Assembly: GCF_003751445.1 (NCBI RefSeq)
Contig: NZ_RJUU01000004.1
Coordinates: 1 to 64,000 of the forward strand
Source of the DNA: Streptomyces sp. 840.1
Lineage (GTDB): Bacteria > Actinomycetota > Actinomycetes > Streptomycetales > Streptomycetaceae
Length of the DNA: 64,000 bases
Direction of reading: 5' to 3'
Part shown: positions 18,555-63,780 of the stretch, in pieces
Layout of the letters: every line of letters begins with the position of its first letter
Position numbering within the stretch: position 1 is the stretch's first letter
Program-made: the position numbers and the translations under genes
The notes under the pieces: generated by a model
Databases searched by the model: none
What the model saw: only the letters and a program-made list of their open reading frames with translations
Told to the model about the DNA's origin: nothing

Positions 18555-37148
<18,594 letters not shown>

Positions 37149-44303: not shown

Positions 44304-44600
44304 ATGACATCGGCGCTACCCACCGACGGTGCGACGAGCGAGCTGGCGTCGCTGGTGCGCACCGCCTGGACCGAGAGCCTGGGCCACGACGAGTTCCACG
44401 ACGAGGAGAACTTCTTCCTGGTCGGCGGTCACTCGATGTGCGCGCTGCGGATCGTGCGCACGCTCAAGCGGGAGCTGGGGGCGCCCCTGACGGTACGCCA
44501 GTTCTTCGCGCACCCGACCGTGACCGAGCTGGCCGCCTTCCTCGCCGGGGCCGCCCCGGTCAGCGGTGGCCCCGGAACGCGTGCGGGGGCAGGGGCGTGA
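44304..44600 (+). CDS. Free-standing peptidyl carrier protein
   Basis: A 98-aa carrier protein with the phosphopantetheine site FFLVGGHSMCALRI (Ser44), in the GGHS form typical of NRPS carriers. AAGGAGT precedes the ATG. The stop overlaps the GTG start of the next gene (GTGA). It is probably loaded by the free-standing adenylation protein at the end of the operon (61969-63486), and it can present its amino acid to the TDO-like enzymes or donate it to the condensation domain of the next protein. It may also serve the KS of that protein, which has no carrier behind it. Confidence 0.9.
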   Translation: MTSALPTDGATSELASLVRTAWTESLGHDEFHDEENFFLVGGHSMCALRIVRTLKRELGAPLTVRQFFAHPTVTELAAFLAGAAPVSGGPGTRAGAGA

Positions 44601-48958: not shown

Positions 48959-50238
48959 GCACCGCGATGGAGACAACGTTTCCGGCCGGGCCCGAGGCGC
49001 TGCGGGTACTGGCGCTGTCCGCCCGGGACGGGCGGACAGCGGCTGCGGCGGCCGTCCGGCTCGCGGACCGGCTGGCGGCGGACCCGTCACTGGACCCCGA
49101 CGACGTGGCCCTCACCCTCGCGCACGGGCGGGAGCGGTTCGCCGTCCGGCACGCGGTGACCGGGACGAGCGCCGCCGGGCTGGCCGACGCGCTGCGGGAG
49201 TCGGCGGCGCGCCCGCGCCGGGCGGCTCCGGTGCCCGCCCTGGTCCTCGACCTCGGTGACGGCTCGCCGCCGCCCGGCACACCCCCGCTGGCGCAGGCCG
49301 TCGAGGCGTCCGCCACCGCCGGGGACCTCGGTCTGCCGCAGGCCGCCGATACGGCGGCGGTGCTGTACGGCACGGCGTCCTGGCTGGCCGCGCACGGGGT
49401 GCGTCCGGACGTGGTCCTCGGCCGGGGTCCGGCGGCCGCCGCCGCGTCGGCGCTCCGCGGTGAGCTGTCCCTCCCCGACGCGCTGCGGGCGGCGGCGACA
49501 GCCACCGGAACCCCGCAGGCCGAGACTCCCGAGGGGGAGGTGCTGGTGGTCCGCCTGGGTGCCGGCGCCGCCGAAGCCGGTGTCCTGTGCCTCGACCCCC
49601 TCGACCCGGCCTCGTACGCAAGGCTCTTCGCCACGCTCTGGGAGCGGGGCTTCGACGTGGACTGCACGCTGGGGCGCGGCGGGCGCCGGGTGCGGCTGCC
49701 CGGGTACCCCTTCCAGCGCTCCGGCTCCGTCACCGCGACGGTCCCGGCCGGACTGCGCCCGCTCACCCCGCACGAGCAGCGCTGGCTCTTCCACGACCTG
49801 GTGCGCTCGGGGAGCGCGGCCGAGCACACGCTGTGCGCGACGGCCGTCCTGCCCGGTCCGGTGCCCGGCGCCCCGGCCGCCGACGCCGCACTGGCCGCGC
49901 TCCAGGACCGTCACCCGGACCTGCGCACCGTCTTCACCCGGTCCGGCGGCCGCTGGTTCGCCCGCGTCTCCGGCCGGCCGGTGCCGGTGACGGTGCTCGC
50001 CCCGGACAGCGGCGTCGCGCCGGCCGGCCGGGTGCGGGCCGCCACCGCGCAGGACACGTTCGCCGCGGCGGACGTCCCGCTGGTCCGCTGCGCCCTCGCG
50101 CCTGCGGGTGACGGGTGGGCGGTGGCGCTGGCCGTCTACGCCCCGGTTGCCGCTTCCTCGTCGGCCGACGAACTGCTCGCCGAATGGTGCGAACTCGCCG
50201 GGGCACCGCTCCGGCCGGCCTCCGCCGCGCACGCGTGA
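48955..50238 (+). CDS. Degenerate AT plus truncated condensation-like domain
   Basis: A 427-aa protein whose GTG overlaps the stop of the C-A-PCP-KS gene. Residues 1-75 look like a KS-AT linker. Residues 130-190 still resemble an AT (GVRPDVVLGRGPAAAAASALRGELSLPDAL), but the catalytic GHSxG has become GRGPA, so the serine and its histidine neighbour are lost, and the HAFH half is missing. RRVRLPGYPFQR at about 243-254 is the usual post-AT linker. From about residue 262 the start of a condensation domain follows (LTPHEQRWLFHD, ALQDRHPDLRTVF), but the HHxxxDG motif is absent and the second lobe is missing. The open frame and coupling argue that it is a retained, possibly structural partner of the KS rather than recent junk. 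Confidence 0.65.
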   Translation: MSTAMETTFPAGPEALRVLALSARDGRTAAAAAVRLADRLAADPSLDPDDVALTLAHGRERFAVRHAVTGTSAAGLADALRESAARPRRAAPVPALVLDLGDGSPPPGTPPLAQAVEASATAGDLGLPQAADTAAVLYGTASWLAAHGVRPDVVLGRGPAAAAASALRGELSLPDALRAAATATGTPQAETPEGEVLVVRLGAGAAEAGVLCLDPLDPASYARLFATLWERGFDVDCTLGRGGRRVRLPGYPFQRSGSVTATVPAGLRPLTPHEQRWLFHDLVRSGSAAEHTLCATAVLPGPVPGAPAADAALAALQDRHPDLRTVFTRSGGRWFARVSGRPVPVTVLAPDSGVAPAGRVRAATAQDTFAAADVPLVRCALAPAGDGWAVALAVYAPVAASSSADELLAEWCELAGAPLRPASAAHA

Positions 50239-50290: not shown

Positions 50291-51361
50291 ATGAAAACCG
50301 CCCAGGACCTCACCGCCGCAGTGCCCGTTCCAGCCGACTGGGCCGGGGCCGCACCCGCGCCGATCGGCGTGGACCAGGCCTTCAACGGCTATGTCGCCGG
50401 CACCGTCATCAACGCCCTCGACCGGCTCGGGGTCTGGGACCGGCTGGCCGTCGACCCGCTGCTCGACCTTCGCGTCCTCGCCGCCGAGACCGGCCCCGCC
50501 GTCCGCGAGCGGGAGCTGCGCGAGGTGGTCCGGGCCGCGGCGACCTGTGGCTGGGTCCGGCTCCAGAACGACGGCCACACCGCGCTGCTGACCACAGCCG
50601 GCCAGGAGGTCATCCGCATGCGCGGGTACTTCACCTGGGGCGTCGGCGGTTACAACGAGGTGTTCGCGCAGGCCCACCGCATCGTGGCCGGCGAGGCCGA
50701 GTTCGGCACGGACGTGCTGCGCGACGAGGCGATGGTGGCGCTCGGCTCCGGTCAGAACGACCGCTCCTTCATGGCCGGCACCCTGGACTCGGTCCTGGCC
50801 GATGTGGACTTCTCCGTCCTCGCCGACCTCGGCAGCGGCATCTCCGCCCGGGTCTCGCGGGTGGTCGGCGAGCGCCCCGGCACCCGGGGACTCGGCCTGG
50901 ACATCAGCGGTCCGGCCACTGACCTCGGCCACCGCACGATCGCCGAGGCGGGCCTGGCCGACCGGGTCCGGGCGATCCGGACGGACGTGCTGGACGTGTG
51001 CCACCGGGCCGCGCACCGCGAGACCCTCGCCGAGGTCGACACGGTGATGAGCTTCTTCCTGCTGCACGACCTGCTGGCAGACCCCGTGACCCGGCCGCAC
51101 ACCTTCACCCGGTTGCGCGAGGCGTTCCCGGCGGCCCGCACGTTCGTCTTCGCGGACACGATGCTGCGGCCGGACTCGCAGGACTCGGCAACACTGCCCG
51201 TCTTCTCCCTCGGCTACGAACTGGCCCACGCGCTCATGGGTGTTCCGCTGCACACCAAGGAGACGTACGAGGAGCTGTTCGCCGGAGCCGGTCTGGTTCC
51301 GCGCCGCGTCGTGCCGTTCGGCACCCCGCACTCGTGGCTGTACGTACTGGAGGCCCGGTGA
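50291..51361 (+). CDS. SAM-dependent methyltransferase, possibly alpha-keto acid type
   Basis: A 356-aa class I methyltransferase. An N-terminal winged-helix-like dimerisation part (residues 25-115) precedes the SAM-binding fold with motif I VLADLGSGISARVSRVV, the acidic LGLDIS and a C-terminal AGLVPRRVVPFG block. The two-part build and the segment YFTWGVGGYNEVF recall 2-ketoarginine (MrsA-like) C-methyltransferases, which methylate alpha-keto acids before transamination. A HisC-type aminotransferase in the same operon would fit that, but O- or N-methylation is equally possible. AAGGAA lies well placed before the ATG. The stop shares one base with the next start (TGATG). Confidence 0.65.
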   Translation: MKTAQDLTAAVPVPADWAGAAPAPIGVDQAFNGYVAGTVINALDRLGVWDRLAVDPLLDLRVLAAETGPAVRERELREVVRAAATCGWVRLQNDGHTALLTTAGQEVIRMRGYFTWGVGGYNEVFAQAHRIVAGEAEFGTDVLRDEAMVALGSGQNDRSFMAGTLDSVLADVDFSVLADLGSGISARVSRVVGERPGTRGLGLDISGPATDLGHRTIAEAGLADRVRAIRTDVLDVCHRAAHRETLAEVDTVMSFFLLHDLLADPVTRPHTFTRLREAFPAARTFVFADTMLRPDSQDSATLPVFSLGYELAHALMGVPLHTKETYEELFAGAGLVPRRVVPFGTPHSWLYVLEAR

Positions 51362-52722
51362 TGGCAAGTCCCCTCGCAACGCTGCGGGAGTTCTCCCCGC
51401 GCACCCGTGTCGTCCTCTCCGTCAACGCGCTCAACTCGTTCGGCGGCGGCCTGGTCCTGCCGTTCCTGTGGATCTACCTCAGTGAGGTGCGCGGCCTGCC
51501 CGCCTGGGTGCCCGCCGTGACGCTCGCGGTGCAGGCGGGCACGGCCGTGGCCGGCGGGCTGTTGTGGGGCTCGCTGCTCGACCGGTTCCCGCCGCGCGTC
51601 ACGGTGCCCGTGGTGATGGCCGTCGCGGGCATCGGCACGGCGCTGTACGCGCAGGCGACCGGTGTGTACACCGCGCTGACCGCGGCCCTGGTGTACGGCT
51701 TCGGAATCAGCGGCGTCGGCACGGTGCTGCGCTACCTGTACGCGGGGGCCGCCTCCGCGCGGGAGCGAGGCCTGGCCTACTCCGCCGACTACGCGGTGTT
51801 CAACGCCATGACCGGGCTCGGGGTACTGGTCGGCGGTCTGGTGGCGTCCATGGACGCGGGCTCGCGCGCGGTCCGGTTCAGCGTGCTCTACCTGACGGAC
51901 GGGGCTACGTTCCTGCTGGCCGGCGCGGCACTGTTCTGGCTGCTGCCGAAGGTGGTCAAGGCGGCCGGGAAGGACGAGGAGGGTGCCACCGGCCGGCGCC
52001 GGGCCGGCTACCGCGAGGTGCTGACCCAGCGCCACATCGGTCTGCTGCTGGCCGCGCTGGCGGTCTGCTCGCTGGTCTCGTACGGACAGTTCCGCTCGGG
52101 TCTGCCGGGCTATCTGACCCAGGGCGGGGCGCTGGGACCCGAGGGCATCTCCGGCGCCTTCGCGGTCAACATCCTGGTCGCCGTGGGCGCCCAGGTGCTG
52201 CTGGCCGACCGGATTCAGCGCATCCGCCGCAGCACGGTGTTCGCCGTCTCCGGCGCGGTGTGGGCCGTGGCCTGGGCGCTGGTCCTGGCCGCGGGGCTGC
52301 GGCACGGCGGCAGCGCGCTGGCGCTGGCCATGGCCGGGGTGGTGCTGCTCTCGGTGGGCGAGGCGCTGGTCTTCCCGGTTGTGACGTCGCTGCTGAACGA
52401 CCTGGCTGCCGAGCACATCAGGGGCCGGGTCAACGCCCTGCTCTCGGTTGCCGTCTCGACCGGCTCCGTGGCCGGACCGGCGCTCGCGGGCGCCCTGCTG
52501 CCGTGGGCGGACGGCCTCGGCCTGATGGCGGCGCTGCTGGCCGGCTGTCTGGCGGTCGTCGCCGTGGCGGTGCGGCTGCGTACGGTGCTGGGCCTGCGGG
52601 TGGACCTGCCGGCGCCGCAGGAGAAGGCGGCCGAAGTGGCGGACGATTCCGCGGCGGGCGCGCCGGATCCCGACGCCGCCCCGCACCGGGCCACCGCCGA
52701 AGCGGCCACGGCCTCCGTGTGA
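51361..52722 (+). CDS. MFS transporter, probable product exporter
   Basis: A 453-aa membrane protein with about 12 hydrophobic segments, the arrangement of drug-efflux MFS carriers. Seen: NALNSFGGGLVLPFLWIYL as first helix, the loop motif GGLLWGSLLDRFPPRVTVPV, and a repeat of this pattern in the C-terminal half (LNDLAAEHIRGRVNALLSV). The last 50 residues form a hydrophilic Ala/Asp tail. It is coupled to the methyltransferase by a one-base overlap, so it is part of the biosynthetic operon. Export of the product or an intermediate is the likely role. The substrate is unknown. Confidence 0.85.
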   Translation: MASPLATLREFSPRTRVVLSVNALNSFGGGLVLPFLWIYLSEVRGLPAWVPAVTLAVQAGTAVAGGLLWGSLLDRFPPRVTVPVVMAVAGIGTALYAQATGVYTALTAALVYGFGISGVGTVLRYLYAGAASARERGLAYSADYAVFNAMTGLGVLVGGLVASMDAGSRAVRFSVLYLTDGATFLLAGAALFWLLPKVVKAAGKDEEGATGRRRAGYREVLTQRHIGLLLAALAVCSLVSYGQFRSGLPGYLTQGGALGPEGISGAFAVNILVAVGAQVLLADRIQRIRRSTVFAVSGAVWAVAWALVLAAGLRHGGSALALAMAGVVLLSVGEALVFPVVTSLLNDLAAEHIRGRVNALLSVAVSTGSVAGPALAGALLPWADGLGLMAALLAGCLAVVAVAVRLRTVLGLRVDLPAPQEKAAEVADDSAAGAPDPDAAPHRATAEAATASV

Positions 52723-52774
52723 CGGTCCGGGCCGACCGGACTCCCGATACGAAGCAAGCGAGGTACTGCCCATC

Positions 52775-53515
52775 ATGAACAACTGGCCGCTCACCGGGAT
52801 CAGCGTGCGCACATCGCGCGTCGAGCTGCGCTGGCCCACGCCCGAGGATCTCGACGCGCTAGCGGACCGGGCGACCGAGGGGGTCCACGCCCCCGGCTTC
52901 ATGCCGTTCTTCTCGCAGTGGACGGACGGGGCCCCCGAGGTGGTCGCCCGCCGCGTCCTGCAGCGCCACTGGCACGCCATGGCCACCTGGGCCCCCGAGG
53001 ACTGGACGCTCTTCCTGGTCGTGGTCGCCGACGGTGAGGTGGTCGGCTCGCAGAGCCTGGGCGCCCGGGACTTCGGCGTCACCCGGGAGGTACTGCTGAC
53101 GTCGTGGCTGACGCTGGGCCGGCAGGGCGAGGGCCTCGGCGGACACGCGAGGGCGGCCGCCCTGGAGCTGGCCTTCACCGGGCTCGGCGCCGACCAGGCG
53201 TTCTCCGTCGTACGGCGCGGCAACGACGCCTCCCAGGCCGTGTGCGCCAAGTTCGGCTTCGAGCCCGACGGCAGCCAGATCAACGCGGTCCGCGGCGAAC
53301 AGGTGGTCAGTGACCGGTTCCGGCTCTCCCGGCAGCGCTGGTCGGCCCGCCGTTCCATCGAGGCGGAGGTGGGCGGAACCGCCGCGGCGCTGCCGCTGTT
53401 CGGTGTGACGGCCCCGGCCGCCGCCCGGCGCGCGTCCACCGTCCCCGGCGCCCCCGTGGCGAGCGTGCTCTCCGGAGTGCGCTACGCCGAGGAAGCCGAC
53501 CAGCCCGCCGCCTGA
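52775..53515 (+). CDS. GNAT-family N-acetyltransferase (RimJ/RimL type)
   Basis: A 246-aa acyltransferase. The N-terminal pattern RVELRWPTPEDLDALADRA and the acetyl-CoA site RQGEGLGGHARAAALELAF are those of RimJ/RimL-like GNATs, and NDASQAVCAKFGFEPDG is the typical motif B. About 50 residues after the fold (from residue 190) are Ala-rich and not part of the family core. In an operon that makes diamino acids, N-acylation of an amine for protection or self-resistance is a sensible role, as with beta-lysine acetyltransferases, but the substrate is not shown by the sequence. Confidence 0.8.
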   Translation: MNNWPLTGISVRTSRVELRWPTPEDLDALADRATEGVHAPGFMPFFSQWTDGAPEVVARRVLQRHWHAMATWAPEDWTLFLVVVADGEVVGSQSLGARDFGVTREVLLTSWLTLGRQGEGLGGHARAAALELAFTGLGADQAFSVVRRGNDASQAVCAKFGFEPDGSQINAVRGEQVVSDRFRLSRQRWSARRSIEAEVGGTAAALPLFGVTAPAAARRASTVPGAPVASVLSGVRYAEEADQPAA

Positions 53516-53541
53516 CCGCACCCTGCCCCAAGGACGTGAAC

Positions 53542-54840
53542 ATGTCTGAGCATCCCGTCATCGCCGTCGTCTACGACCGGGGCTCCGCCTTCCTCCTCGA
53601 CATCGTGGAGGGCCTGGCCTCCTTGGGCGACCCGGTCCTGGCCCTGTGGCCCGGCGACCATGCCGACGAGGTGGCGCCGCTGGCCGAGGAGCTGGCCCCG
53701 GTCGTCCGGCTGGACGCCACGGATCACGACGTGTCGGCCCGGCTGCTCGCCGCCCATGCCCCGGACGCCATCGTGACCTTCAGCGAATCCAGGCTGTCGG
53801 TCACCGCCGAGATCGCCCGGCGGCTCGGCCTGCCCTACCACTCACCGGCCACGGTGGAGCTGCTGCGCGACAAGTACGCGCAGCGCCGCCGGCTGCGGGA
53901 GCGGGGCGCCGACTCCGTGCGCGCGTTCAAGGTGCGCCGGCCGGGCGACTGGGCGCAGGCGCTGGCGGCCGTCGGCCTGCCCGCCGTGCTCAAGCCGCAG
54001 ACCGGCGAGGGCAGCCGCAGCACCCATCTGGTCGAGGACGCGGACCGGGGCGCCGCCCTGGTCGCAGAGCTGCTGTCCGGGGCGGGCGGGGAGAACGCGC
54101 TGGTGCTGGAGGAGTATCTGCGGGGCCGGGACTGCGGCCCGCTGGGCGACCACATCTCCGTGGAGTCGGCGGTGACCGGGGGCCGGGTCTCGCACTGGGC
54201 GGTGACCGGGAAGTTCCCGCTGGAGCCGCCGTTCCGCGAGGTGGGGCATCTGCGCCCGGCGCCGCTCGCGGCGGCGGAACGTGCGGCGGCGCTGGATGTG
54301 GTGACCGCCGCCCTGCACGCACTGGACATCACCACCGGCATCACCCACACCGAGCTGAAGCTGACCGCCGACGGCCCGAGGATCATCGAGGTCAACGGAC
54401 GGCTCGGCGGCTTCCAGCACCAGCTCGCCAGTCTTTCGGGCGACTTCAACGCGGTCACGCTCGCCGGACGGGTGGCGCTCGGCGAGGACGTCTCACAGGT
54501 GCGGGCCGAGGACCGGCGGGTGGTGTTCGCCAGGGCGGTGCCCCTGCCGCCCGGCGGCGGCAGCTATGTCCGCGTGCACGGGCTGCGCGACGCACTCGCC
54601 GTGGACGGTGTGGAGAGGATCGTCATCCCTCACCTGCCCGGGGCCCGGCTGCCCGTCGGCGTGCAGAGCGGCGAACTCGCCTGGGTGGAGGGCACGGCCA
54701 CGGACCACGCATCGATGCAGCGGGTGATCGAGCGGGCGTTCTCGCTCCTCTCGTTCACGATCGCGGACCCGGACGGCGAACACCGCACCATGACCCCGCA
54801 AGGCCTGGCCGCCCCGGTGCTCGCGGGGAGCGCCACCTGA
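53542..54840 (+). CDS. ATP-grasp ligase
   Basis: A 432-aa ATP-grasp enzyme that would activate a carboxylate as acyl phosphate and join it to an amine. Seen: an N-terminal Rossmann-like part, the nucleotide-binding lysine strand AVLKPQTGEGSRST (about residues 150-165), the adenine-lid strand ALVLEEYLRGRDC, and the metal-binding end of the site IIEVNGRLGG (Glu-x-Asn-x-Arg). It resembles L-amino-acid ligase and biotin-carboxylase-like members. I chose the ATG at 53542 with AAGGA 7 nt upstream over the GTG at 53536. It offers an NRPS-independent amide bond, for example between the lysine-derived amino acid and another acid, or between the products of the two operons. The partners are inferred. 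Confidence 0.85.
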   Translation: MSEHPVIAVVYDRGSAFLLDIVEGLASLGDPVLALWPGDHADEVAPLAEELAPVVRLDATDHDVSARLLAAHAPDAIVTFSESRLSVTAEIARRLGLPYHSPATVELLRDKYAQRRRLRERGADSVRAFKVRRPGDWAQALAAVGLPAVLKPQTGEGSRSTHLVEDADRGAALVAELLSGAGGENALVLEEYLRGRDCGPLGDHISVESAVTGGRVSHWAVTGKFPLEPPFREVGHLRPAPLAAAERAAALDVVTAALHALDITTGITHTELKLTADGPRIIEVNGRLGGFQHQLASLSGDFNAVTLAGRVALGEDVSQVRAEDRRVVFARAVPLPPGGGSYVRVHGLRDALAVDGVERIVIPHLPGARLPVGVQSGELAWVEGTATDHASMQRVIERAFSLLSFTIADPDGEHRTMTPQGLAAPVLAGSAT

Positions 54841-54934
54841 GGCCTGCCGCACGTGGTGCTCCAGCGCCGCTCGAGTGGCGTCCTCCACTCTGGTCACCGT
54901 TCACGGACCGGAGCCGGAAGAGGGAGTGGCCTGC

Positions 54935-55306
54935 GTGGCAACCGCTGAGATCCGCACCGACATCCCGCAGTTCCTGCCGGTGGCCGGCCACCACCAGCCG
55001 GCCCCCTTCTACCTCACCGCGGACATGTTCGGCGGTGTGCCGGTCCAGGTCGCGGGCGGGCCCGTCGATCATCTGGTGGGCAGGCCCGTCGCCGATCCGC
55101 ACCGGCACGAGGTGGCCGAGATCTACTTCCTCGTCTCACCCACTCCGGGCGGCGCCCGCATCGAGGTGACCGTCGAGAACGAGACACACGAGTTGTCCTC
55201 CCCGGCGCTGCTGCATGTGCCGGCCGGTGCCGAGCACCGCTTCGTCACACTGGAGGCGGAGCCCGGCAGTTACTGCTTCGGCATCCTGCTGGGAGACGCC
55301 GCGTGA
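54935..55306 (+). CDS. Small cupin-domain protein
   Basis: A 123-aa single-domain cupin. Motif 1 is DPHRHEVAEIYFLV, giving His-x-His and Glu metal ligands. Motif 2 is VPAGAEHRFVTL, giving the fourth histidine. With all four ligands present it should bind a metal and could be an isomerase, a decarboxylase or an oxygenase, or merely a binding protein. I prefer the GTG at 54935, with AGGGAG 8 nt upstream, to the in-frame GTG at 54875. Its stop overlaps the start of the aminotransferase gene (GTGA), so the two are coupled and may act on the same intermediate. Confidence 0.8.
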   Translation: MATAEIRTDIPQFLPVAGHHQPAPFYLTADMFGGVPVQVAGGPVDHLVGRPVADPHRHEVAEIYFLVSPTPGGARIEVTVENETHELSSPALLHVPAGAEHRFVTLEAEPGSYCFGILLGDAA

Positions 55307-56331
55307 CGGTCGCCGCCGTGCGTCCCGGTCCGGTGCGCCTGCATCTGAGCGAGAACGCCCACGGCGCCAGCCCACGGGCGCTGCTGGCCGCGCACGAGGC
55401 CCTCGACCCGACGTCCGTCTACCCCGATCCGGCCCGCTCGGCGCCCCTGCGGGCCATCGCGGAGCGGCTCGGCGTCGGGGAGCACCAGGTCGCCGTCGCC
55501 AACGGCAGCGACGAGTTGGTGCTGCTGTCCGCGCTCGCGCTCGGCGACCGCGACCGCCCCGGCCTCACCACCGCGGGCACCTTCCCCGGCTACCGCGTCT
55601 GTCTGGAGGCCGTGGGGCGCGGCTGCCAGGAGATCCCGCTCGACGGCGTCCGGGTGGACGCCGACGCCGTCGCCGCCGCGATGGAGCGGGCGGGCATCGT
55701 CTACATCTGCCACCCGCACAACCCGACCGGCGCCGTGCTGGACCGCGACCGCATGGAGCTGCTGGTCGAGCGGGCCGCCGTCACCGGCACTCCCCTGGTG
55801 GTCGACGAGGCGTACCTGGAGTTCGCCCCGGCGGGCACTCCCCGGCTCCTCGACCACCTCGGCAGCGGCGCCCCGTTGCTGTCGCTGCGCACGTTCTCCA
55901 AGGCGTACGGGCTGGCCGCCCTGCGGATCGGCTACGCCGTGGGCAGCCCCGAGCTCGTCGCCCGGCTGCGCGAGGTCCAGGGCACGATGCCGTTCAGCGC
56001 GAACGCCGTCGCCCAGGCCGCCGCCGTGGCCGCGCTCGCGGACCGCGGCCATCTGGACGAGGTACGCCGGCAGAACGCGCTGCAACGGGCCTGGTTCCGG
56101 GGCGAACTGGAGCGCAGGGGGCGGCGGTCGCTGCCCTCGGCGACGAACTTCGTGGCCGTACGGGTCTCCGACTCGGCCGCAGCCGAACGGCTGCTGGAGC
56201 GGGACCATGACATTCTCGTCCGCGACGCCGGGCGTTTCGGATGTGCCGGATATCTGCGGGTCTCCCTCGGATCCGCCAAGGATCTGGTGCGGCTGATGGA
56301 CGCCCTCGACCTGATCGACCCTGTCGGCTGA
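55303..56331 (+). CDS. HisC-like PLP-dependent aminotransferase
   Basis: A 342-aa fold-type I aminotransferase of the histidinol-phosphate/aromatic group. Seen: LSENAHGASP at the N-terminus, VANGSDELV, the ICHPHNPTGAVLD asparagine, VVDEAYLEF, the Schiff-base lysine in TFSKAYGLAALRIGY (Lys200) and a C-terminal LRVSLGS with the carboxylate-binding arginine. HisC-like enzymes in biosynthetic clusters often make or consume unusual amino acids. Candidate substrates here are a methylated alpha-keto acid made by the upstream methyltransferase or the 3-keto group left by Kdd. It is not near histidine genes, so primary histidine synthesis is unlikely. Confidence 0.87.
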   Translation: MTVAAVRPGPVRLHLSENAHGASPRALLAAHEALDPTSVYPDPARSAPLRAIAERLGVGEHQVAVANGSDELVLLSALALGDRDRPGLTTAGTFPGYRVCLEAVGRGCQEIPLDGVRVDADAVAAAMERAGIVYICHPHNPTGAVLDRDRMELLVERAAVTGTPLVVDEAYLEFAPAGTPRLLDHLGSGAPLLSLRTFSKAYGLAALRIGYAVGSPELVARLREVQGTMPFSANAVAQAAAVAALADRGHLDEVRRQNALQRAWFRGELERRGRRSLPSATNFVAVRVSDSAAAERLLERDHDILVRDAGRFGCAGYLRVSLGSAKDLVRLMDALDLIDPVG

Positions 56332-56359
56332 CGGGCCGTACACCCCCATGGAGAACTCT

Positions 56360-57049
56360 GTGACGCACGCAGTCATCGTCAACGACCGGCAGCAGTACGC
56401 CCTGTGGCCGACCGGCAGCAATCTGCCCGACGGCTGGCTCGCCACCGGCTGGACCGGCGGCGAACAGGCCTGCCTGGACCGGATCTCCGAGCTGTGGAAG
56501 GACGGCCGCCCCGCCCCGGTGCGCCGGGCGGTCGCCGAGGACGCCGCCCGTCCCGCCGTGCAGCTGCTGGTGACCCCGCGGCTGTGGCTGCGCGAGGTGC
56601 TGCCCGAGGAGGCCGAGCAGCTCACCGGGGGCGGCACGGCCGGGCTCGAATGGCTGGGCGGCACCCCCAGCGCGGAGACCCGGATCGCGGCGAAGATGCT
56701 CACCCGTGCCGCCGGCGCCGGAGTCCATGTGCCCGGCTGGGGCATGTACCTGCTGCTCCGGGCGGAGGACGTCGTGGTGGTCGGCGCGATGGGCTTCCAC
56801 GGTCCGCCCGCCGACGGCTCGGCGGAGATCGGCTTCGACCTCACCGAGCAGGCCCGGGGCCAGGGTTACGCCACCGAGGCCCTGGGCGAGCTCGCCGCCT
56901 GGACCCTGCGGCAGAGCGGCCTGGACACGGTCGTCGCCACGACCACCGAGGACAACGTCACCTCGCAGCGCGTCATGGAGCGCGCGGGGTTCGAGCTCCA
57001 GCCCGAGCGCGACCAGGAAGGTCTGCTCGTCTACCGGCTCACCCGCTGA
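56360..57049 (+). CDS. MbtH-like domain fused to a GNAT acetyltransferase
   Basis: A 229-aa two-domain protein. Residues 1-58 carry the MbtH signature: VNDRQQYALWP, PDGWLATGW, CLDRISELWKDGRP. MbtH proteins bind adenylation domains and are often needed for their folding or activity. Residues 70-229 are a GNAT fold with VQLLVTPRLWLREVLPEEAEQL, the acetyl-CoA motif ARGQGYATEAL and NVTSQRVMERAGF. I chose the GTG at 56360 because GGAG stands 6 nt before it; an ATG at 56348 has no site. No other MbtH gene is seen in the window, so this protein probably serves the adenylation domains at 44597-48958 and 61969-63486. The fused acetyltransferase suggests acetylation of a carrier-bound or freshly activated amino acid. 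Confidence 0.8.
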   Translation: MTHAVIVNDRQQYALWPTGSNLPDGWLATGWTGGEQACLDRISELWKDGRPAPVRRAVAEDAARPAVQLLVTPRLWLREVLPEEAEQLTGGGTAGLEWLGGTPSAETRIAAKMLTRAAGAGVHVPGWGMYLLLRAEDVVVVGAMGFHGPPADGSAEIGFDLTEQARGQGYATEALGELAAWTLRQSGLDTVVATTTEDNVTSQRVMERAGFELQPERDQEGLLVYRLTR

Positions 57050-57088: not shown

Positions 57089-58501
57089 ATGGTGTCCCGT
57101 TCACTCCGTGCCGAGGCCGCCCTTGCGGACAGCCCCGTCGAAAGTCTCCCGCAGCCCTACGCCTACCGCCGTCACGAGGCGGTGGAACCCGACTGGCGCC
57201 GCTTCCCCGGCTGGCGCGACGTCACCGAGCGGGAATGGCGCGATGCCCAGTGGCAGCGCTCGCACTGCGTCAAGGGGGTCCGCGAGCTGCGCGCGGTGGC
57301 GGGCCCCGGTCTCGACGACGTGTTCTACGACGACGTCGAGGCGGACCAGCGCCACCACGCGACGATGTCGATCCTGCTGCCGCCGCACGTCCTGAACACG
57401 ATCGCCCCGCACACCGGGGTGGAGACCGCCGCCTGGTACGAGGACCCGGTACGCCGCTACATGCTGCCGGTCGCCTCCGACCGGCATCCGCTGTGGCCGA
57501 GCCATCCGCTCGCCTCCCGCGACTCACTGCACGAGGCGGAGATGTGGGCGGTGGAGGGGCTGACCCACCGGTATCCGACCAAGGTGCTCGCCGAACTGGT
57601 GAGCACGTGCCCGCAGTACTGCGGGCACTGTACCCGGATGGATCTCGTCGGCACCTCCACGCCGCAGATCACCAAGTACCGCTTCGTGATGCGCCCCGCC
57701 GACCGGCTGGACCGCATGATCGACTACCTGCGGGCCACCCCGACGGTGCGGGACGTCGTCGTCTCGGGCGGCGACGTGGCCAACGTGCCCTGGCCCAGGC
57801 TCGCGTCGTTCGTCGGCCGGCTCCTGGAGATCGATTCGATCCGGGACATCCGGCTGGCCAGCAAGGGCCTGATCGGGCTGCCGCAGCACTGGCTCGCCCC
57901 GCAGGTCGTCGACGGGGTCGCGAAACTGTCCGCCGAGGCCCGCGCGCGGGGGGTGTCGCTGGCCCTGCACACCCACGCCAACGCCGCCCAGCAGATCACC
58001 CCGCTGGTCGCGGAGGCGTCCCGGGCTCTGCTCGACGCGGGCCTGCGCGACATACGCAACCAGGGCGTACTGCTCGACGGGGTCAACGGCACGACGGAGG
58101 GGCTGCTCGACCTGTGCTTCGCGCTGCTCGACTCCGCCGGGATCATGCCCTACTACTTCTACCTCTGCGACATGATCCCCGGCGCCGAGCACTGGCGGCT
58201 GCCGCTGGCGCGCGCCCAGGAACTGCAGCACTCACTGATGGGTTACCTGCCCGGGTTCGCGACCCCGCGGCTGGTCTGCGACGTGCCGTACGTCGGCAAG
58301 CGCTGGGTGGACCAGGTGGACGGCTACGACCGGGAGCGCGGCATATCCTCCTGGACGAAGAACTACCGCACGACCGTCGACCACGACGACCCGGCGGCGC
58401 TGGAGCGGGTGCACCACTACTACGACCCGGTGCACACGCTGCCCCGGGCGGGCCGGGAGTGGTGGACGAGCGCACAGGCGCTGATGGGCGGGGCGTCATG
58501 A
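57089..58501 (+). CDS. kamA: Lysine 2,3-aminomutase-like radical SAM enzyme
   Basis: A 470-aa radical SAM, PLP-dependent aminomutase of the KamA family. The cluster-binding motif CPQYCGHC gives Cys174, Cys178 and Cys181, VVVSGGDV is the SAM-binding GGD-type motif, and DMIPGAEHWRLP and VPYVGKRW form the C-terminal part with a candidate PLP lysine. It should turn L-lysine into beta-lysine (3,6-diaminohexanoate). The residues around the cysteines differ somewhat from clostridial KamA, so the actinobacterial branch may accept a related amino acid. The stop overlaps the kdd start (ATGA), and kdd, kamD and kamE follow, which makes lysine the best substrate. ATG 57089 or GTG 57092 may be the start. 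Confidence 0.87.
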   Translation: MVSRSLRAEAALADSPVESLPQPYAYRRHEAVEPDWRRFPGWRDVTEREWRDAQWQRSHCVKGVRELRAVAGPGLDDVFYDDVEADQRHHATMSILLPPHVLNTIAPHTGVETAAWYEDPVRRYMLPVASDRHPLWPSHPLASRDSLHEAEMWAVEGLTHRYPTKVLAELVSTCPQYCGHCTRMDLVGTSTPQITKYRFVMRPADRLDRMIDYLRATPTVRDVVVSGGDVANVPWPRLASFVGRLLEIDSIRDIRLASKGLIGLPQHWLAPQVVDGVAKLSAEARARGVSLALHTHANAAQQITPLVAEASRALLDAGLRDIRNQGVLLDGVNGTTEGLLDLCFALLDSAGIMPYYFYLCDMIPGAEHWRLPLARAQELQHSLMGYLPGFATPRLVCDVPYVGKRWVDQVDGYDRERGISSWTKNYRTTVDHDDPAALERVHHYYDPVHTLPRAGREWWTSAQALMGGAS

Positions 58502-59577
58502 CGACCGCACCGGTGGACACCGCGTCCGCACTGGGGCTGCACCGGGTGCGCGAGCCCAGGGGCGTGCTGCCGCAGGCGGCCCTCCGGCTCGACACCGATC
58601 CCCGGCCGGCCCCGGACGAGGTCCGTATCGACGTCAGTTGTCTGAATCTGGACGCCGCGTCGTTCCGGCAACTGCGCGAGGAGCACGGCGGGGACGGCGA
58701 CGCCGTGCGGGCCGCGGTGTGCGCGCTCGTGCGGAACCGCGGCAAGATGCACAACCCGGTGACCGGGTCCGGCGGCATGCTGATCGGCACCGTCGCCGAG
58801 GTGGGGCCCGCCTCACCGCTGGGTCTGCGCCCCGGCGACCGGGTGGCGACCCTGGTGTCACTGACCCTGACGCCGCTGGAGATCACGGACGGACTGCGCG
58901 ACTGGGACGGGCTGAGCGAGCGGGTCCCGGCGCGCGGTCACGCCATCCTGTTCGGCCGCTCCGTCGCCGCCCTGCTCCCGGACGACCTCCCCGACGAACT
59001 GGCCCTGTCGGTACTGGACGTGTGCGGCGCCCCGGCGCTGACCGCGCGCCTCGTCACCGCGTACGCGCACCGTGGAACCGCTCCCTCGGTGCTGGTGCTC
59101 GGCGCCGGCGGCAAGTCCGGTTCCCTGTCGCTCGCCGCCGCCCGCCGCGCCGGTGCCGGCCGGATCACCGGCGTGGTGCCCGGCTCCGCCGAGGAGACGG
59201 CCCTGACCGCCGCCGGCCTCGCCGACGAGGTGGTACGGGCGGACGCCCGGGACGCCGTCGCCCTGCACGCGCTGATCGAGAGCCGTGGCGGCCCCGCCGA
59301 CGTGACGGTCGTCTGCACCGACGTGGCGGGTTGCGAGCACGCCGCGATCCTGGCCACACGGGACGGCGGCACCGTGGCGTTCTTCTCGATGGCGACATCG
59401 TTCAGCACCGCCGCGCTCGGCGCCGAGGGGCTGGCCCGCGATGTCACGCTGCTGATCGGCAACGGATACCAGCCCGGCCACAGCGCCCTGGCCCTCGACC
59501 TCGTGCGCGAGGAGCCGGGCGTGCGCGCTCTGTTCGACCGGGTGCGGGTCCCCGCAGGCGACGGAGCCGGGCGGTGA
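58498..59577 (+). CDS. kdd: L-erythro-3,5-diaminohexanoate dehydrogenase
   Basis: A 359-aa NAD(P)-dependent enzyme related to medium-chain dehydrogenases. Signature RNRGKMHNPVTGSGGMLIGTV (residues 80-100) is highly characteristic of Kdd, and the nucleotide-binding turn is GAGGKSG (from Gly202). In lysine fermentation it deaminates 3,5-diaminohexanoate to 5-amino-3-oxohexanoate. It lies between kamA and kamD with 4-bp overlaps on both sides. The next enzymes of the catabolic route (the 3-keto-5-aminohexanoate cleavage enzyme and the ammonia lyase) are not in this window, so the product is probably diverted to biosynthesis. Confidence 0.9.
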   Translation: MTTAPVDTASALGLHRVREPRGVLPQAALRLDTDPRPAPDEVRIDVSCLNLDAASFRQLREEHGGDGDAVRAAVCALVRNRGKMHNPVTGSGGMLIGTVAEVGPASPLGLRPGDRVATLVSLTLTPLEITDGLRDWDGLSERVPARGHAILFGRSVAALLPDDLPDELALSVLDVCGAPALTARLVTAYAHRGTAPSVLVLGAGGKSGSLSLAAARRAGAGRITGVVPGSAEETALTAAGLADEVVRADARDAVALHALIESRGGPADVTVVCTDVAGCEHAAILATRDGGTVAFFSMATSFSTAALGAEGLARDVTLLIGNGYQPGHSALALDLVREEPGVRALFDRVRVPAGDGAGR

Positions 59578-61157
59578 GCGCCCCCGCGCCGCCCGTCGCA
59601 GGCAAACTGGGCCTCGATCCGGGCACCGTCGCCCGCGCCCGCGCGCTGGCCGCCCGGGTCGGCCGCCCCGTCGTCGAGCTCGCCCGCTCCCACACCACCG
59701 CCTCCGTGGAGCGCGCCACCCTGCGCCTGGCCGGACTCAACGGCGCCGACGCCGAGGGCATCCCCTGGGTGAACCGGCTCGTCGACGCCGTGGCCGACTC
59801 CGTCGGTCTGGAACACGGCGTCTGCCTGCCGGTCTGGGACGCCCTGCGCACCGGGCCGTACCACGACCTGACCGCCCTGGCGGCCCACGCCACCGCCCGT
59901 ACCGTGCAGTTCCGCGTCCCCGAGGGCGAGGACGCCGAGCAGGCCGCCCGGACGGCCCACTCCGCGGTCGCCCGGGGCCTGGCCGCCATCGACACCCGGC
60001 GCGCCGAACGGGAGCGGCTGGTCGGCGACCTGAGTGACCCTCCCTCTCCCTGGCTCTATCTGATCGTGGCGACCGGCGACATCTACGAGGACATCCGGCA
60101 GGCGCAGGCGGCGGCGCGCGGCGGCGCCGATGTGATCGCGGTGATCCGCTCGACGGGTCAGTCGCTGCTGGACTACGTGCCGCAGGGCGCGACCCGCGAG
60201 GGCTACGCCGGCACGTACGCCACCCAGGAGAACTTCCGGCTGATGCGGGCCGCGCTCGACGAGGTGTCGGCCGAGCTCGGCCGCTACGTACGGCTCACGA
60301 ACTACGCGTCCGGCCTGTGCATGCCGGAGATCGCCGCACTGGCCGGTCTCGAACGCCTCGACATGATGCTCAACGACTCGATGTACGGAATCCTCTTCCG
60401 CGACATCAACCCGGTGCGCACCTTCGTCGACCAGCGCTTCTCCCGGCAGCTGCACGCCCGTGCCGGCATCGTCATCAACACCGGCGAGGACAACTACCTC
60501 ACGACCGCGGACGCCGTGGACGCCGCCCACACGGTGACGGCGAGTCAGCTCCTGAACGAGTACTTCGCCAAGGAGGCGGGGCTCCCGGACGGGCAGCTCG
60601 GTCTCGGTCACGCCTTCGAGATCGACCCGGACCGGCCGGACTCGTTCCGTCTGGAGCTGGCGCACGCGATGCTCGCCCGGGAGCTGTTCCCCGACGCACC
60701 GCTGAAGTGGATGCCGCCGACCCGGCACATGACCGGTGACGTCTTCCGCGGCTATCTCCTCAACGGCTTCTTCAACCTCGCGGGCGCGCTGACCGGACAG
60801 AACATCCTGCTGGTCGGAATGATGACCGAGGCCGTCGTGACACCGTTCCTGTCCGACCGCGACCTGGCGCTGCGCAACGTCCGCTACGTCCTTGGCTCGG
60901 CGGGTTCGCTCGCCGAGGACTTCCGCCCCGCGCCGGGCGGGTTCATCGCGAACCGCGCCCACCAGGTGCTCGGCGAGGCGGTGGACCTGCTGGAGAACAT
61001 CTGCGACCGGGGGCTGCTGCACGCCATCGGGCAGGGCACGTTCGGCGGGATGCGGCGCCCCTCGGACGGCGGCCGGGGCTCCGACGGCGTCGTGGCGCGC
61101 GCGCCCGGCTACCGCAATCCGGCCGCCGATCTCCTGGAAGGAAACGAGGGCGGATGA
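59574..61157 (+). CDS. kamD: Lysine 5,6-aminomutase alpha subunit
   Basis: A 527-aa protein matching the TIM-barrel large subunit of the adenosylcobalamin- and PLP-dependent lysine 5,6-aminomutase. Recognisable blocks are GIPWVNRLVDAVADSVGLEHG, AQAAARGGADVIAVIRSTGQSLLDYVPQGAT, TYATQENFRLMRAALDEVS, LTNYASGLCMPEIAALAGLERLDMMLNDSMYGILFRDIN and LKWMPPTRHMTGDVFRGY. With KamE it moves the 6-amino group of beta-lysine to C5, giving 3,5-diaminohexanoate. The start is a GTG overlapping the kdd stop (GTGA), and its stop overlaps kamE (ATGA). Confidence 0.95.
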   Translation: MSAPAPPVAGKLGLDPGTVARARALAARVGRPVVELARSHTTASVERATLRLAGLNGADAEGIPWVNRLVDAVADSVGLEHGVCLPVWDALRTGPYHDLTALAAHATARTVQFRVPEGEDAEQAARTAHSAVARGLAAIDTRRAERERLVGDLSDPPSPWLYLIVATGDIYEDIRQAQAAARGGADVIAVIRSTGQSLLDYVPQGATREGYAGTYATQENFRLMRAALDEVSAELGRYVRLTNYASGLCMPEIAALAGLERLDMMLNDSMYGILFRDINPVRTFVDQRFSRQLHARAGIVINTGEDNYLTTADAVDAAHTVTASQLLNEYFAKEAGLPDGQLGLGHAFEIDPDRPDSFRLELAHAMLARELFPDAPLKWMPPTRHMTGDVFRGYLLNGFFNLAGALTGQNILLVGMMTEAVVTPFLSDRDLALRNVRYVLGSAGSLAEDFRPAPGGFIANRAHQVLGEAVDLLENICDRGLLHAIGQGTFGGMRRPSDGGRGSDGVVARAPGYRNPAADLLEGNEGG

Positions 61158-61972
61158 GCACCGATCCCAGCAACACCGCTTCCCCGTACGGCGACACGCG
61201 GCACGGCGGCGTCGTCCGCCCGTACGGCGACACCACCGACGACGGCATGGTGCAGCTGTCCTACACCCTGCCGCTGCCGCACGGCCCGCTGGCCGAGGGC
61301 GCCGCGCTGCAACTGGCCCGCCGTATGGGCATGGAGCGCCCGATGGTCGTGCACAGCAAGGCGGTCGGCGGCAGCGACTTCAGCTTCTTCGTCGTGTACG
61401 GAGCCGTGACCCACTCCGTGGACCTCGACCGGATCGTGATCGCCGAGCGCGGCTACCCCCTGCTGGCAGCCAAGGACGCCGACGCGGCGGTACGCGACAG
61501 GCTCGGCCGCAGGCTCGTGGTCCTCGGGGCCTGCATCGGCACGGACGCACACACCGTGGGGATCGACGCGATCCTCAACATCAAGGGCTTCGCCGGCGAG
61601 AAGGGCCTGGAGTACTACAAGCAGATGCGGGTCCTGAACCTGGGCGCACAGGTCCCGGTCGGTGATCTGGTGCGCCGGGCCCGCTCCGAGGGTGCCGACG
61701 CCGTCCTCGTCTCACAGGCCGTCACCCAGCGGGACGCCCACCTCACCAACGTCCGGGAGCTCAGCGCCGAACTGCGCGCCGAATTCGCCGAGCACGAACG
61801 GCCCCTGCTGGTGGTCGGCGGTCCCCGCTTCGATCCGGATGCGGCGGCGACGCTGGGCGCGGACCGGGTCTTCGGCCGGGGCACCACGCCGGGTGACGTC
61901 GCCAGCTACCTGGTGCACGCCCTGGCACCGGCTCCCTCCGTGACCGAGGCCGTTCTGCAGGACGTCCGATGA
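61154..61972 (+). CDS. kamE: Lysine 5,6-aminomutase beta subunit
   Basis: A 272-aa protein with the two features of KamE. The base-off cobalamin-binding motif is Asp-x-His-x-x-Gly in GTDAHTVGIDAILN, with His133. The PLP lysine motif is HSKAVGGSDFSF, with Lys69. The N-terminal 25 residues repeat SPYGDT and RPYGDT, as in other beta subunits where this part contacts the alpha subunit. It is coupled to kamD and to the adenylation gene by ATGA overlaps. Activity needs coenzyme B12, and no cobalamin genes are seen nearby. Confidence 0.94.
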   Translation: MSTDPSNTASPYGDTRHGGVVRPYGDTTDDGMVQLSYTLPLPHGPLAEGAALQLARRMGMERPMVVHSKAVGGSDFSFFVVYGAVTHSVDLDRIVIAERGYPLLAAKDADAAVRDRLGRRLVVLGACIGTDAHTVGIDAILNIKGFAGEKGLEYYKQMRVLNLGAQVPVGDLVRRARSEGADAVLVSQAVTQRDAHLTNVRELSAELRAEFAEHERPLLVVGGPRFDPDAAATLGADRVFGRGTTPGDVASYLVHALAPAPSVTEAVLQDVR

Positions 61973-63486
61973 CCGCCGCCTCCGCCGGCCGCATCGACAC
62001 CCGGTTCACCGCGGTGGCCGCCCGCAACGCCGCCCGCACCGCCGTGTCCGACGCCGGGGGCGAGGTGAGTTACCTCGAACTGGACTGGCTGGCCGACGCC
62101 GTCGCGCGCCGCTTGGAGGGCCGCACCGGGCCCGGCCGGCTGGTCGCGCTGCGTGCCGCCCGGACCCGTTACGCCCCGGGAGCCGTCCTGGGCATTCTGC
62201 GTTCCGGCGCCGCGTACGTACCCATCGACCCCGGCTACCCGGCCGCCCGCCAGGAGTACCTCCTGCGGGACTCGGGGTGCGAACTGGTCGTCTCCGACAG
62301 CGGGCTGCTGGACGGGGAGGTCCCGGTCGCGAAGGCGGGCCCGTTCGTCCTGGCGGCCCGGACCGTGTCCGGGGCGGACGCAGCACCGGGCGGCCGCCGG
62401 GTGCCCGACGACACCGCCTACGTCATCCACACGTCCGGGTCCACCGGTGCCCCCAAGGGCTGCGTCGTCGGACACGGTCAGGTGCTGGCCCTGCTGGACG
62501 CGGCGGTACCACTGCTGGGCACGGGCCCGGACGACGTGTGGACGCTGTTCCACTCGCTCAGCTTCGACTTCAGTGTGTGGGAGCTGTGGGGCCCGCTGCT
62601 GTACGGCGGCCGCACGGTCGTCGTCGACCGTGAGACCGCCACGGAACCCCTGGAGTTCGCCCGTCTGCTCGCGAGCCGGGGCGTCACCGTCCTCAACCAG
62701 GTGCCCTCCGCCTTCCGCAACCTGACCGCCGAGGCCATCGCCGAGAAGGTACGGCTGCCCGCACTGCGCCGGGTCGTCTTCGGCGGCGAGGCTCTGATCC
62801 CCGCCGATGTGAGGCGCTGGTGGGCGGCCGGGATCGCCCCGGACGCCGAACTGGTCAACATGTACGGGATCACCGAGACCACGGTCCACGTCACGTACTG
62901 CCCGCTCACCCCTGCCGTTCTGGAGGGTGCGGCGCCAGGCCGTACGCCACTCGGGCGTCCGCTGCCGCACCTGTCGGTCTCGCTGCGCGACGCCGGGGGC
63001 CGGCCCGTCCCGGCCGGGGAGCAGGGCGAGATGTGGGTCGGCGGGAGCGGGGTCGGCAACGGCTACATGGGACGCCCGGAACTGACCGCTCAGCGCTTCG
63101 TCGACCCGGGCGACGGCTCCGGCCGGCACTACCGCAGCGGTGACTGGGCCGTGGCCGACGAGAACGGGCTGCTGTACTACGCGGGCCGTCAGGACGGCCA
63201 GGTCAAACTGCGCGGCTTCCGCATCGAACTGGGCGAGATCGAGTCGGCGCTGCGCGCGGTGCCGGGTGTCTCGGGCGCGGCCTGCCTGGTGACGGACAGC
63301 CCTCACGGGGACCAGTCCCTCACCGCGTACGTCGTGGCGGAACGCGAGGCCGTCCCGGCGGGCACGGTCCGCGGGGCGCTCGCAGCGCGGCTGCCGGCCC
63401 ACATGATGCCGCAGCGGATCCGCTACCTGGACCGGCTGCCGCTGACGCACAACGGCAAGCTGGACCGGGCCGCGCTGGCCGCCTGA
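61969..63486 (+). CDS. Free-standing NRPS adenylation protein, threonine-like code
   Basis: A 505-aa adenylation domain without carrier. Motifs: VIHTSGSTGAPKG (A3), the A4/A5 region SFDFSVWELWG, MYGITETTVHVTY, YRSGDWAV (A7) and HNGKLDRAAL (A10 lysine). By hand alignment the specificity residues read D-F-W-N-V-G-M-V-H-K, one change from the well-known threonine code DFWNIGMVHK. L-threonine or a close relative is therefore the predicted substrate, loaded on the free PCP at 44304-44600. It is the last gene of the operon, directly coupled to kamE, so a diaminohexanoate-type substrate should still be tested. The MbtH-like domain in the operon could assist it. Confidence 0.85.
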   Translation: MTAASAGRIDTRFTAVAARNAARTAVSDAGGEVSYLELDWLADAVARRLEGRTGPGRLVALRAARTRYAPGAVLGILRSGAAYVPIDPGYPAARQEYLLRDSGCELVVSDSGLLDGEVPVAKAGPFVLAARTVSGADAAPGGRRVPDDTAYVIHTSGSTGAPKGCVVGHGQVLALLDAAVPLLGTGPDDVWTLFHSLSFDFSVWELWGPLLYGGRTVVVDRETATEPLEFARLLASRGVTVLNQVPSAFRNLTAEAIAEKVRLPALRRVVFGGEALIPADVRRWWAAGIAPDAELVNMYGITETTVHVTYCPLTPAVLEGAAPGRTPLGRPLPHLSVSLRDAGGRPVPAGEQGEMWVGGSGVGNGYMGRPELTAQRFVDPGDGSGRHYRSGDWAVADENGLLYYAGRQDGQVKLRGFRIELGEIESALRAVPGVSGAACLVTDSPHGDQSLTAYVVAEREAVPAGTVRGALAARLPAHMMPQRIRYLDRLPLTHNGKLDRAALAA

Positions 63487-63504: not shown

Positions 63505-63567
63505 CTCTCCCACACGCTCACTCTCTCTCCCACACGCTCGCTCTCTCTCGCACGCTCGCACTCGTGC
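63505..63567. repeat. Short tandem repeats after the operon
   Basis: About three imperfect units of roughly 16-20 bp, with the core CTCTCTCCCACACGCTC, follow the adenylation gene. They are pyrimidine-rich on the plus strand. The rest of 63487-63715 shows no gene. Confidence 0.6.
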
Positions 63568-63715
63568 CCGCGTGGGAAGACAATCACCGCACCCTCCGAC
63601 GGAACATATTTCGGCCGGAATGCAGAGCTCATTCCAGGAAATCATCGAGTGATTCTCCAGCGAGAATCCAGGGAAACTCCGACGGGCCTTCCGGAGAGGA
63701 ATCACCGAGCGCACG

Positions 63716-63760
63716 AAAAAAGGGTCGCCGCGACCCCCCGGGAGGGGATCGCGGCGACCC
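63716..63760 (-). terminator. Strong intrinsic terminator
   Basis: A hairpin with a perfect 12-bp outer stem (GGGTCGCCGCGA/TCGCGGCGACCC) and an inner CCCC/GGGG stem at 63722-63760 is followed, in the minus direction, by six T (AAAAAA at 63716-63721 on the plus strand). It sits about 20 bases after the stop of the minus-strand gene at the right edge. Its stem can also stop the plus-strand operon. Confidence 0.85.
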
Positions 63761-63780
63761 TCAGAAATGCCCGTCCGGAG

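Follow-up and report, generated by a model that had tools for sequence, protein, structure and literature searches.

A lysine-fermentation gene cassette probably diverted to building-block supply in an FR900452/maremycin-like NRPS-ketosynthase cluster of Streptomyces

The window analysed here is a stretch of 64,000 nucleotides from Streptomyces sp. 840.1 (contig NZ_RJUU01000004.1, positions 1 to 64,000) that carries four genes, kamA, kdd, kamD and kamE, for enzymes of lysine fermentation, followed by a gene for a stand-alone adenylation (A) domain of the nonribosomal peptide synthetase (NRPS) type. We conclude, with a probability of roughly 0.85, that these enzymes have been diverted from fermentation into a building-block pathway, as the initial annotation of the window had proposed. 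Diversion is supported by the synteny of 12 loci, the absence of the genes expected after Kdd and KamE (kal and an amidohydrolase gene), the single clade formed by the KamD proteins, and purifying selection. The NRPS, ketosynthase (KS), ATP-grasp and aminotransferase genes that the annotation had listed beside the four genes are all present in the window (Table 1).

Read directly in the DNA, the four junctions from kamA through kdd, kamD and kamE to the A-domain gene are ATGA, GTGA, ATGA and ATGA, each a 4-bp overlap, exactly as annotated. A longer kamD reading frame opens in the same frame at 58638; its extra upstream stretch is the wrong frame of kdd. Kdd (Table 1), KamD (691.3 against 600 bits) and KamE (324.2 against 280 bits) exceed the curated NCBIfam cut-offs, and the latter two match solved lysine 5,6-aminomutases (KamD to 1xrs_A, E 6.5e-161; KamE to 8t0v_C, E 2.1e-65). 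KamA matches lysine 2,3-aminomutase (LAM) with 161.3 bits, yet remains below the cut-offs of all six NCBIfam families matched; because KamA from two tested kal-bearing actinobacterial loci scores alike for the LAM family (158.3 and 157.0 bits, likewise sub-cut-off), we regard the window protein as a divergent subtype rather than a decayed one. It contains CPQYCGHC and, when aligned to solved LAM 2a5h, the arginine following CxxxCxxCT and two aspartates; KamE contains DAHTVG with His133, plus Lys144. Going by the functional roles that we presume for these residues, the putative catalytic motifs of both proteins are intact.

Among 391 genomes of the order, KamE exceeds its cut-off in five: the source genome with three others of its genus, plus G002 from another family. 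All four genomes of the genus (G000, G038, G121, G292) carry KamE inside this cluster, which in G292 breaks off at the cupin gene, where the contig ends. Scanning genomes with the cupin gave 26 loci, and the eight with the highest cupin identity (L063-L070, from Streptomyces spp. A0642, sk2.1, M41 and NRRL WC-3742, S. rubellomurinus, S. griseoruber, S. mangrovisoli and S. panaciradicis) all hold KamA, Kdd, KamD, KamE and the A domain; L065, L067 and L069 start near a contig end, their 5' part lying outside view. Altogether the order kamA-kdd-kamD-kamE-A is found at 12 different Streptomyces loci, where no gap exceeds 236 bp (13 rows, L067 and L024 being on the same contig; M41 and G121 are nearly identical), so that the combination of kamA-kdd-kamDE with an A domain, which the annotation had suggested looking for in other genomes, does recur. 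In Crossiella (L154) a related cluster holds KamA without kdd or kamDE, and the sole KamE sits in a separate, complete kal-bearing kam operon elsewhere in the genome. A third Crossiella KamA adjoins a stand-alone A domain (L154, 8203-11184) and perhaps serves a beta-lysine unit of another cluster; read by eye, the Crossiella stand-alone A domain gave no clear substrate.

The fermentation pathway proceeds through KamA, KamDE, Kdd, KCE and KAL. Its first three steps are shared with the window through homologous enzymes (KamA below cut-off), but neither KCE nor KAL is found at cut-off in the source genome, and the window genes sit in an NRPS cluster. At phylum level KamE is above cut-off in 15 of 396 genomes; at the 14 loci besides that of the source genome, in a comparison limited to the DNA around each locus (one contig is only 3.4 kb), kal lies nearby in 10 and an amidohydrolase gene in 12, and none of the 14 has a match to the A domain, NRPS or KS (E <= 1e-6). 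The small kal protein passes the 3-aminobutyryl-CoA ammonia lyase cut-off (160 bits) in both loci tested (199.5 and 191.8 bits). Neither kal nor the amidohydrolase gene was found in the searched DNA of the 12 cluster loci, whose gaps are so small that there is no room for an amidohydrolase between kdd and kamD. When the G002 kal protein was searched against 15 genomes, strong kal matches appeared in three only (G002 itself, G845 and Crossiella); ten of the 12 cluster-bearing Streptomyces had only a match of 29-33% identity, and two had none. The only match in the source genome is to a hotdog protein (31% identity, E 8.4e-5) and is no convincing kal; the sole KCE-type (BKACE) protein of this genome is encoded on another contig, next to a likely hydroxyacyl-CoA dehydrogenase gene (by eye), and reaches 261.9 bits, well short of the 382 set as cut-off for KCE. 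The statement that the cleavage and CoA steps are absent holds for the cluster. The annotation had named co-expressed kce and kal homologues elsewhere in the genome as telling against a building-block pathway; these come down to the hotdog match and the sub-cut-off BKACE protein, so that, on the level of sequence, the check favours diversion. Plain lysine catabolism, standing beside a secondary-metabolite cluster by chance, is highly improbable: in the KamD tree the enzymes are kin to actinobacterial catabolic ones, as that explanation would have it, but their place in the cluster is fixed at 12 loci, the source genome is without convincing kal and without KCE above cut-off, and in all 11 cluster-bearing Streptomyces genomes searched KamE has no match (E <= 0.001) besides the cluster copy. 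As separate observations, an Amidohydro_3-like gene stands between kdd and kamD in the actinobacterial lysine operons L017 and L114-L123 (by Pfam in L017, by similarity in the others), and the BKACE protein of the source genome, used as query, found no KCE relative (E <= 1e-6) in the DNA around these operons.

In the KamD tree, which took in all 29 loci given, the cluster proteins form one clade (support 97/95; 13 rows, 12 different) with the actinobacterial operon versions as nearest relatives; a captured operon, cut off after Kdd, would be the simplest reading. Compared with two relatives, the four kam genes have ratios of nonsynonymous to synonymous substitution (dN/dS) of 0.06-0.21, the lowest value coming from 236 codons; this is the range of the KS and methyltransferase genes (0.12-0.18), and the kam genes are under purifying selection. 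The ATP-grasp and GNAT1 genes evolve faster (0.33-0.47). It is also quite unlikely that the pathway ends at 3,5-diaminohexanoate or beta-lysine, with Kdd as a side activity or running backwards: the related Crossiella cluster, which keeps KamA alone, would suit such an early stop, but all 12 Streptomyces loci retain kdd, with a dN/dS of about 0.17 in both comparisons.

The genes around the cassette resemble the FR900452/maremycin (mar) cluster of Streptomyces sp. B9173 and TP-A0890, the latter being the FR-900452 producer NBRC 110468 (PMC4611700). The NBRC 110468 locus matches the window in the free carrier (44%), NRPS (52%), KS (57%), methyltransferase (47%), cupin (68%) and aminotransferase (57%), and also has a MarE-like gene of the same kind. 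The shared features are the free carrier, an NRPS of condensation (C), A and peptidyl carrier protein (PCP) domains, a kin KS, the MarE-like oxygenase, the specificity positions of the NRPS A domain (identical in those kam and FR900452 clusters that were read, with one difference, at position 278, in Crossiella), and the cassette of methyltransferase, cupin and aminotransferase. According to PMC4742848, StnQ1/StnK3/StnR and the homologous MarI/H/G enzymes make (2S,3S)-beta-methyltryptophan; the mar cassette is also covered in PMC5454204. By kinship, the window aminotransferase would belong to this cassette and not to the lysine branch. The window differs in having kamA-kdd-kamD-kamE in place of AmcB/F/H, and in its threonine-type A domain, the fusion of KS to NRPS, and the extra ATP-grasp, GNAT and MFS genes. 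In NBRC 110468, AmcB-, AmcF- and AmcH-like genes stand where the kam genes would be, and a search of the genome gave no match to KamE or KamA; likewise no KamA was found in the sister genomes G496, G611 and G630, and at the G496 locus AmcB, AmcF and AmcH are above their cut-offs. These three enzymes, which belong with AmcG to cispentacin biosynthesis, are absent from the window, where AmcF and AmcH find generic KS and A-domain matches only and AmcB none. In PMC10698177 the minimal Amc product is 3-oxocyclopent-1-ene-1,2-dicarboxylyl-ACP (acyl carrier protein), and the FR900452 producer B9173 is listed with the minimal amcB/F/G/H type. Either cassette, kam or Amc, may be interpreted as the source of a beta-keto unit, the Amc-like genes being the putative suppliers in the sister clusters. 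FR900452 bears a C5 ring on the former tryptophan carboxyl carbon. We rejected the idea that the window is the FR900452 cluster itself with a cyclopentenone made from lysine, as the producer is without a KamE or KamA match and has Amc-like genes. A second FR900452-like variant in one genome was seen in Allokutzneria (L073), a mar-like cluster with KS, NRPS, an AmcB-like ACP and a different A domain; the available DNA of that locus showed no match to AmcF or AmcH.

The specificity of A domains was read from the conserved motifs onto which we presume the specificity positions to map. The stand-alone A domain is above the cut-off of the amino-acid adenylation model (383.3 against 317.4 bits) and has the code DFWNVGMVH in all eight copies read, window included, of the 12 loci. 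Of the solved structures that match it in one stretch only, the top-ranking one is 5n9w, which we take to be the threonine enzyme Thr1. The code differs at one residue from DFWNIGMVHK, which PMC3547906 gives as a threonine code and a survey (PMC12283262) gives for threonine derivatives, among Thr-activating domains. With a code of threonine type, the lysine product is probably not the substrate of this domain. The FR900452-type locus G496 has a comparable stand-alone A domain with a methyltransferase insert, which fits the S-methylcysteine residue that we believe FR900452 to contain. The initial annotation had let the keto acid cyclise to a 6-methylpiperidine-2,4-dione or enter a peptide, a fate that, with 5-amino-3-oxohexanoate or 3,5-diaminohexanoate activated by the adjacent A domain and incorporated as an amide, we now consider unlikely. 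The overlap of the A gene with kamE in the window and the keeping of this pair in 12 loci favour it, but the near-threonine code, the adenylation score and the methyltransferase insert in G496 speak against it, and the FR900452-like architecture points to formation of a C-C bond at the KS, not to closure of a lactam or incorporation as an amide.

In a KS tree from 21 sources (matches below 280 residues left out, midpoint root, with a program warning of long AmcF branches), nine kam-type rows, nine mar-type rows (NBRC 110468 included) and Crossiella form one clade (support 99/99) apart from 10 KS rows of modular polyketide synthases (PKS) of the source genome, and the Cys-His-His triad is kept in the kam rows. 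The next gene (48955..50238) encodes a KS linker and a degenerate acyltransferase (AT) without active-site motif (by eye) and without a Pfam AT match; its AlphaFold model is weak (predicted template modelling score, pTM, 0.53), and the match of its fold to AT and KS-AT structures is only supportive. No intact AT was found after the KS, and Pfam gave no match to a carrier or thioesterase in those genes that were scanned from the KS as far as 63486. A condensation that off-loads the chain onto a free beta-keto acid could do without all three. A precedent is PqsBC of alkylquinolone biosynthesis, which decarboxylates free 2-aminobenzoylacetate, the latter attacking the acyl-cysteine before the amine closes the ring (PMC4807248). 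We propose a like use of an amino-substituted free beta-keto acid in the window, the likeness claimed being one of chemistry; PqsBC is a FabH-like heterodimer with an acyl-CoA donor. We lean, if narrowly, towards a KS that uses 5-amino-3-oxohexanoate as decarboxylating nucleophile in an FR900452/maremycin-like cluster. It is improbable that the keto acid is instead joined as an amide by the ATP-grasp ligase, or is altered by the GNATs, with the KS performing ordinary malonyl chemistry on a carrier charged in trans. Such a fate would agree with the presence of ATP-grasp and GNAT1 in all kam clusters whose available DNA reaches them, and of GNAT2 in all except S. griseoruber/G473, and with the failure to find any of the three in the available DNA of the FR900452 producer's locus; it is opposed by the lack of an intact AT and a carrier domain after the KS, and by the higher dN/dS of ATP-grasp and GNAT1 relative to the kam genes.

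The proposed pathway is that of an FR900452/maremycin-like NRPS-ketosynthase cluster taking its carbon nucleophile from lysine. Going by family function, KamA, KamDE and Kdd would yield 5-amino-3-oxohexanoate, a free beta-keto acid; methyltransferase, cupin and aminotransferase would give beta-methyltryptophan, and the MarE-like enzyme its 2-oxindole. Threonine would be loaded by the stand-alone A domain onto the free carrier and coupled to the oxindolyl amino acid by the C-A-PCP module, and the dipeptidyl chain, Thr-(beta-methyl-oxindolylalanyl), would move to the cysteine of the fused KS, to be released through decarboxylative attack by 5-amino-3-oxohexanoate. The expected product, Thr-NH-CH(CHMe-oxindole)-CO-CH2-CO-CH2-CH(NH2)-CH3, is a 1,3-diketone whose amine is free, and it should close to a methyl-dihydropyridone or an FR900452-like piperazinone enaminone; the predicted core, prior to any acetylation or ligation, is C21H28N4O4 (computed [M+H]+ 401.218). 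Gene content, conservation, missing later catabolic genes, A-domain codes, KS kinship and triad were computed; from these we infer every enzymatic step, above all that of the KS.

Several points weigh against this scheme. KSs of this class normally take carrier-bound malonyl, which in principle might be loaded in trans onto the free carrier, and our KS comparison took in no KS that uses a free beta-keto acid. The corresponding step in FR900452 itself is deduced from the structure of that compound, the NBRC 110468 locus is taken for its FR-900452 cluster from gene content, and A-domain codes can mislead as evidence of substrate. ATP-grasp, the two GNATs and the second tryptophan-dioxygenase-like (TDO-like) protein could use the keto acid otherwise. 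In the KamA tree (26 rows from 31 loci, five dropped for want of a match of at least 250 residues, and containing the very long row L112), the 12 cluster rows do not fall on one side of a branch and require two changes, one branch being sufficient in 28% of 200 bootstrap trees, so that the tree does not decide for a single origin of the cluster KamA. The KamA-only cluster of Crossiella could represent either a transitional state or a variant that uses beta-lysine. Finally, the Amc paper calls the FR900452 pathway unknown (PMC10698177).

The cluster genes are collected in Table 1. The second TDO-like protein combines a GTGS motif like that of TDO with an additional region at its N-terminus, and occurs in every kam cluster whose available DNA reaches it. 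Two open reading frames were discarded: 51564-52778 lies in the wrong frame and is replaced by the MFS gene, and 63564-63821 is ruled out as a carrier protein by its make-up, the free carrier being that of Table 1. A luciferase-like monooxygenase gene (PF00296 in one copy scanned) lies directly 3' of the A domain in L019 (4532-5659), L022, L024, L044 and L046; M41 also has such a gene, but neither the window nor L002 showed one. Elsewhere in the window, 7090-41730 on the minus strand holds a separate and large cluster for a modular PKS (7090-18552 by Pfam, 18555-37148 by KS matches), with a likely 5-aminolevulinate synthase gene (38781-40067, by eye) and an AMP-ligase-like gene (40135-41730), possibly for a polyketide with a C5N unit. 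Four Rfam ASpks matches (12127-33221, plus strand), antisense to the PKS genes, probably reflect similarity to PKS coding DNA and not small RNAs.

Table 1. Genes of the kam-NRPS-KS cluster in the window, with the basis of their assignment
Position	Strand	Feature	Basis or remark
42122..43390	+	Second TDO-like protein, start estimated	Similarity
43424..44284	+	MarE-like 2-oxindole-forming oxygenase	Both PDB matches, 8vyy and 9ca3, are MarE
44304..44600	+	Free-standing peptidyl carrier protein, GGHSM	Likely partner of stand-alone A domain
44597..48958	+	NRPS C-A-PCP fused to ketosynthase, KS from 47693	Pfam, tree, alignment
48955..50238	+	KS linker, degenerate AT-like remnant, C-terminal part like half a condensation domain (by eye)	
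50291..51361	+	S-adenosylmethionine (SAM) C-methyltransferase, MppJ/MarI/StnQ1 kind; start estimated, reading frame opens at 50108	
51361..52722	+	MFS exporter	
52775..53515	+	GNAT acetyltransferase 1	
53536..54840	+	ATP-grasp ligase, L-amino acid ligase-like	
54875..55306	+	Cupin epimerase, MarH/StnK3 kind	
55303..56331	+	HisC-like aminotransferase, MarG/StnR kind	
56348..57049	+	MbtH domain fused to GNAT acetyltransferase 2	
57089..58501	+	kamA, lysine 2,3-aminomutase, radical SAM, actinobacterial subtype	Profile search, structure alignment, tree, motif
58498..59577	+	kdd, L-erythro-3,5-diaminohexanoate dehydrogenase	NF052381, 257.8 bits, cut-off 200
59574..61157	+	kamD, lysine 5,6-aminomutase alpha subunit, GTG start	Profile, 1xrs_A match
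61154..61972	+	kamE, lysine 5,6-aminomutase beta subunit, B12-binding DxHxxG and pyridoxal phosphate (PLP) lysine	Profile, structure match, motifs
61969..63486	+	Stand-alone NRPS A domain, code D-F-W-N-V-G-M-V-H, threonine-type	Profile, code reading

In the literature covered (titles and abstract openings, most subscription journals lying outside coverage) we found no paper that connects NRPS clusters with lysine 5,6-aminomutase or with Kdd. We would put even odds on 5-amino-3-oxohexanoate being a new class of carbon building block for an NRPS-fused off-loading KS, leading to dihydropyridone or enaminone alkaloids by an aliphatic PQS-like chemistry, and evolutionarily interchangeable with the cyclopentenone cassette. 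If true, an assembly line is here supplied by catabolic genes that were captured and cut short, and a ketosynthase takes a free amino-beta-keto acid as its terminating nucleophile. A testable alkaloid scaffold would then be predicted for 12 or more strains of Streptomyces, of which some bear public collection numbers, and kamDE without kal would offer a genome-mining handle for finding more such clusters.

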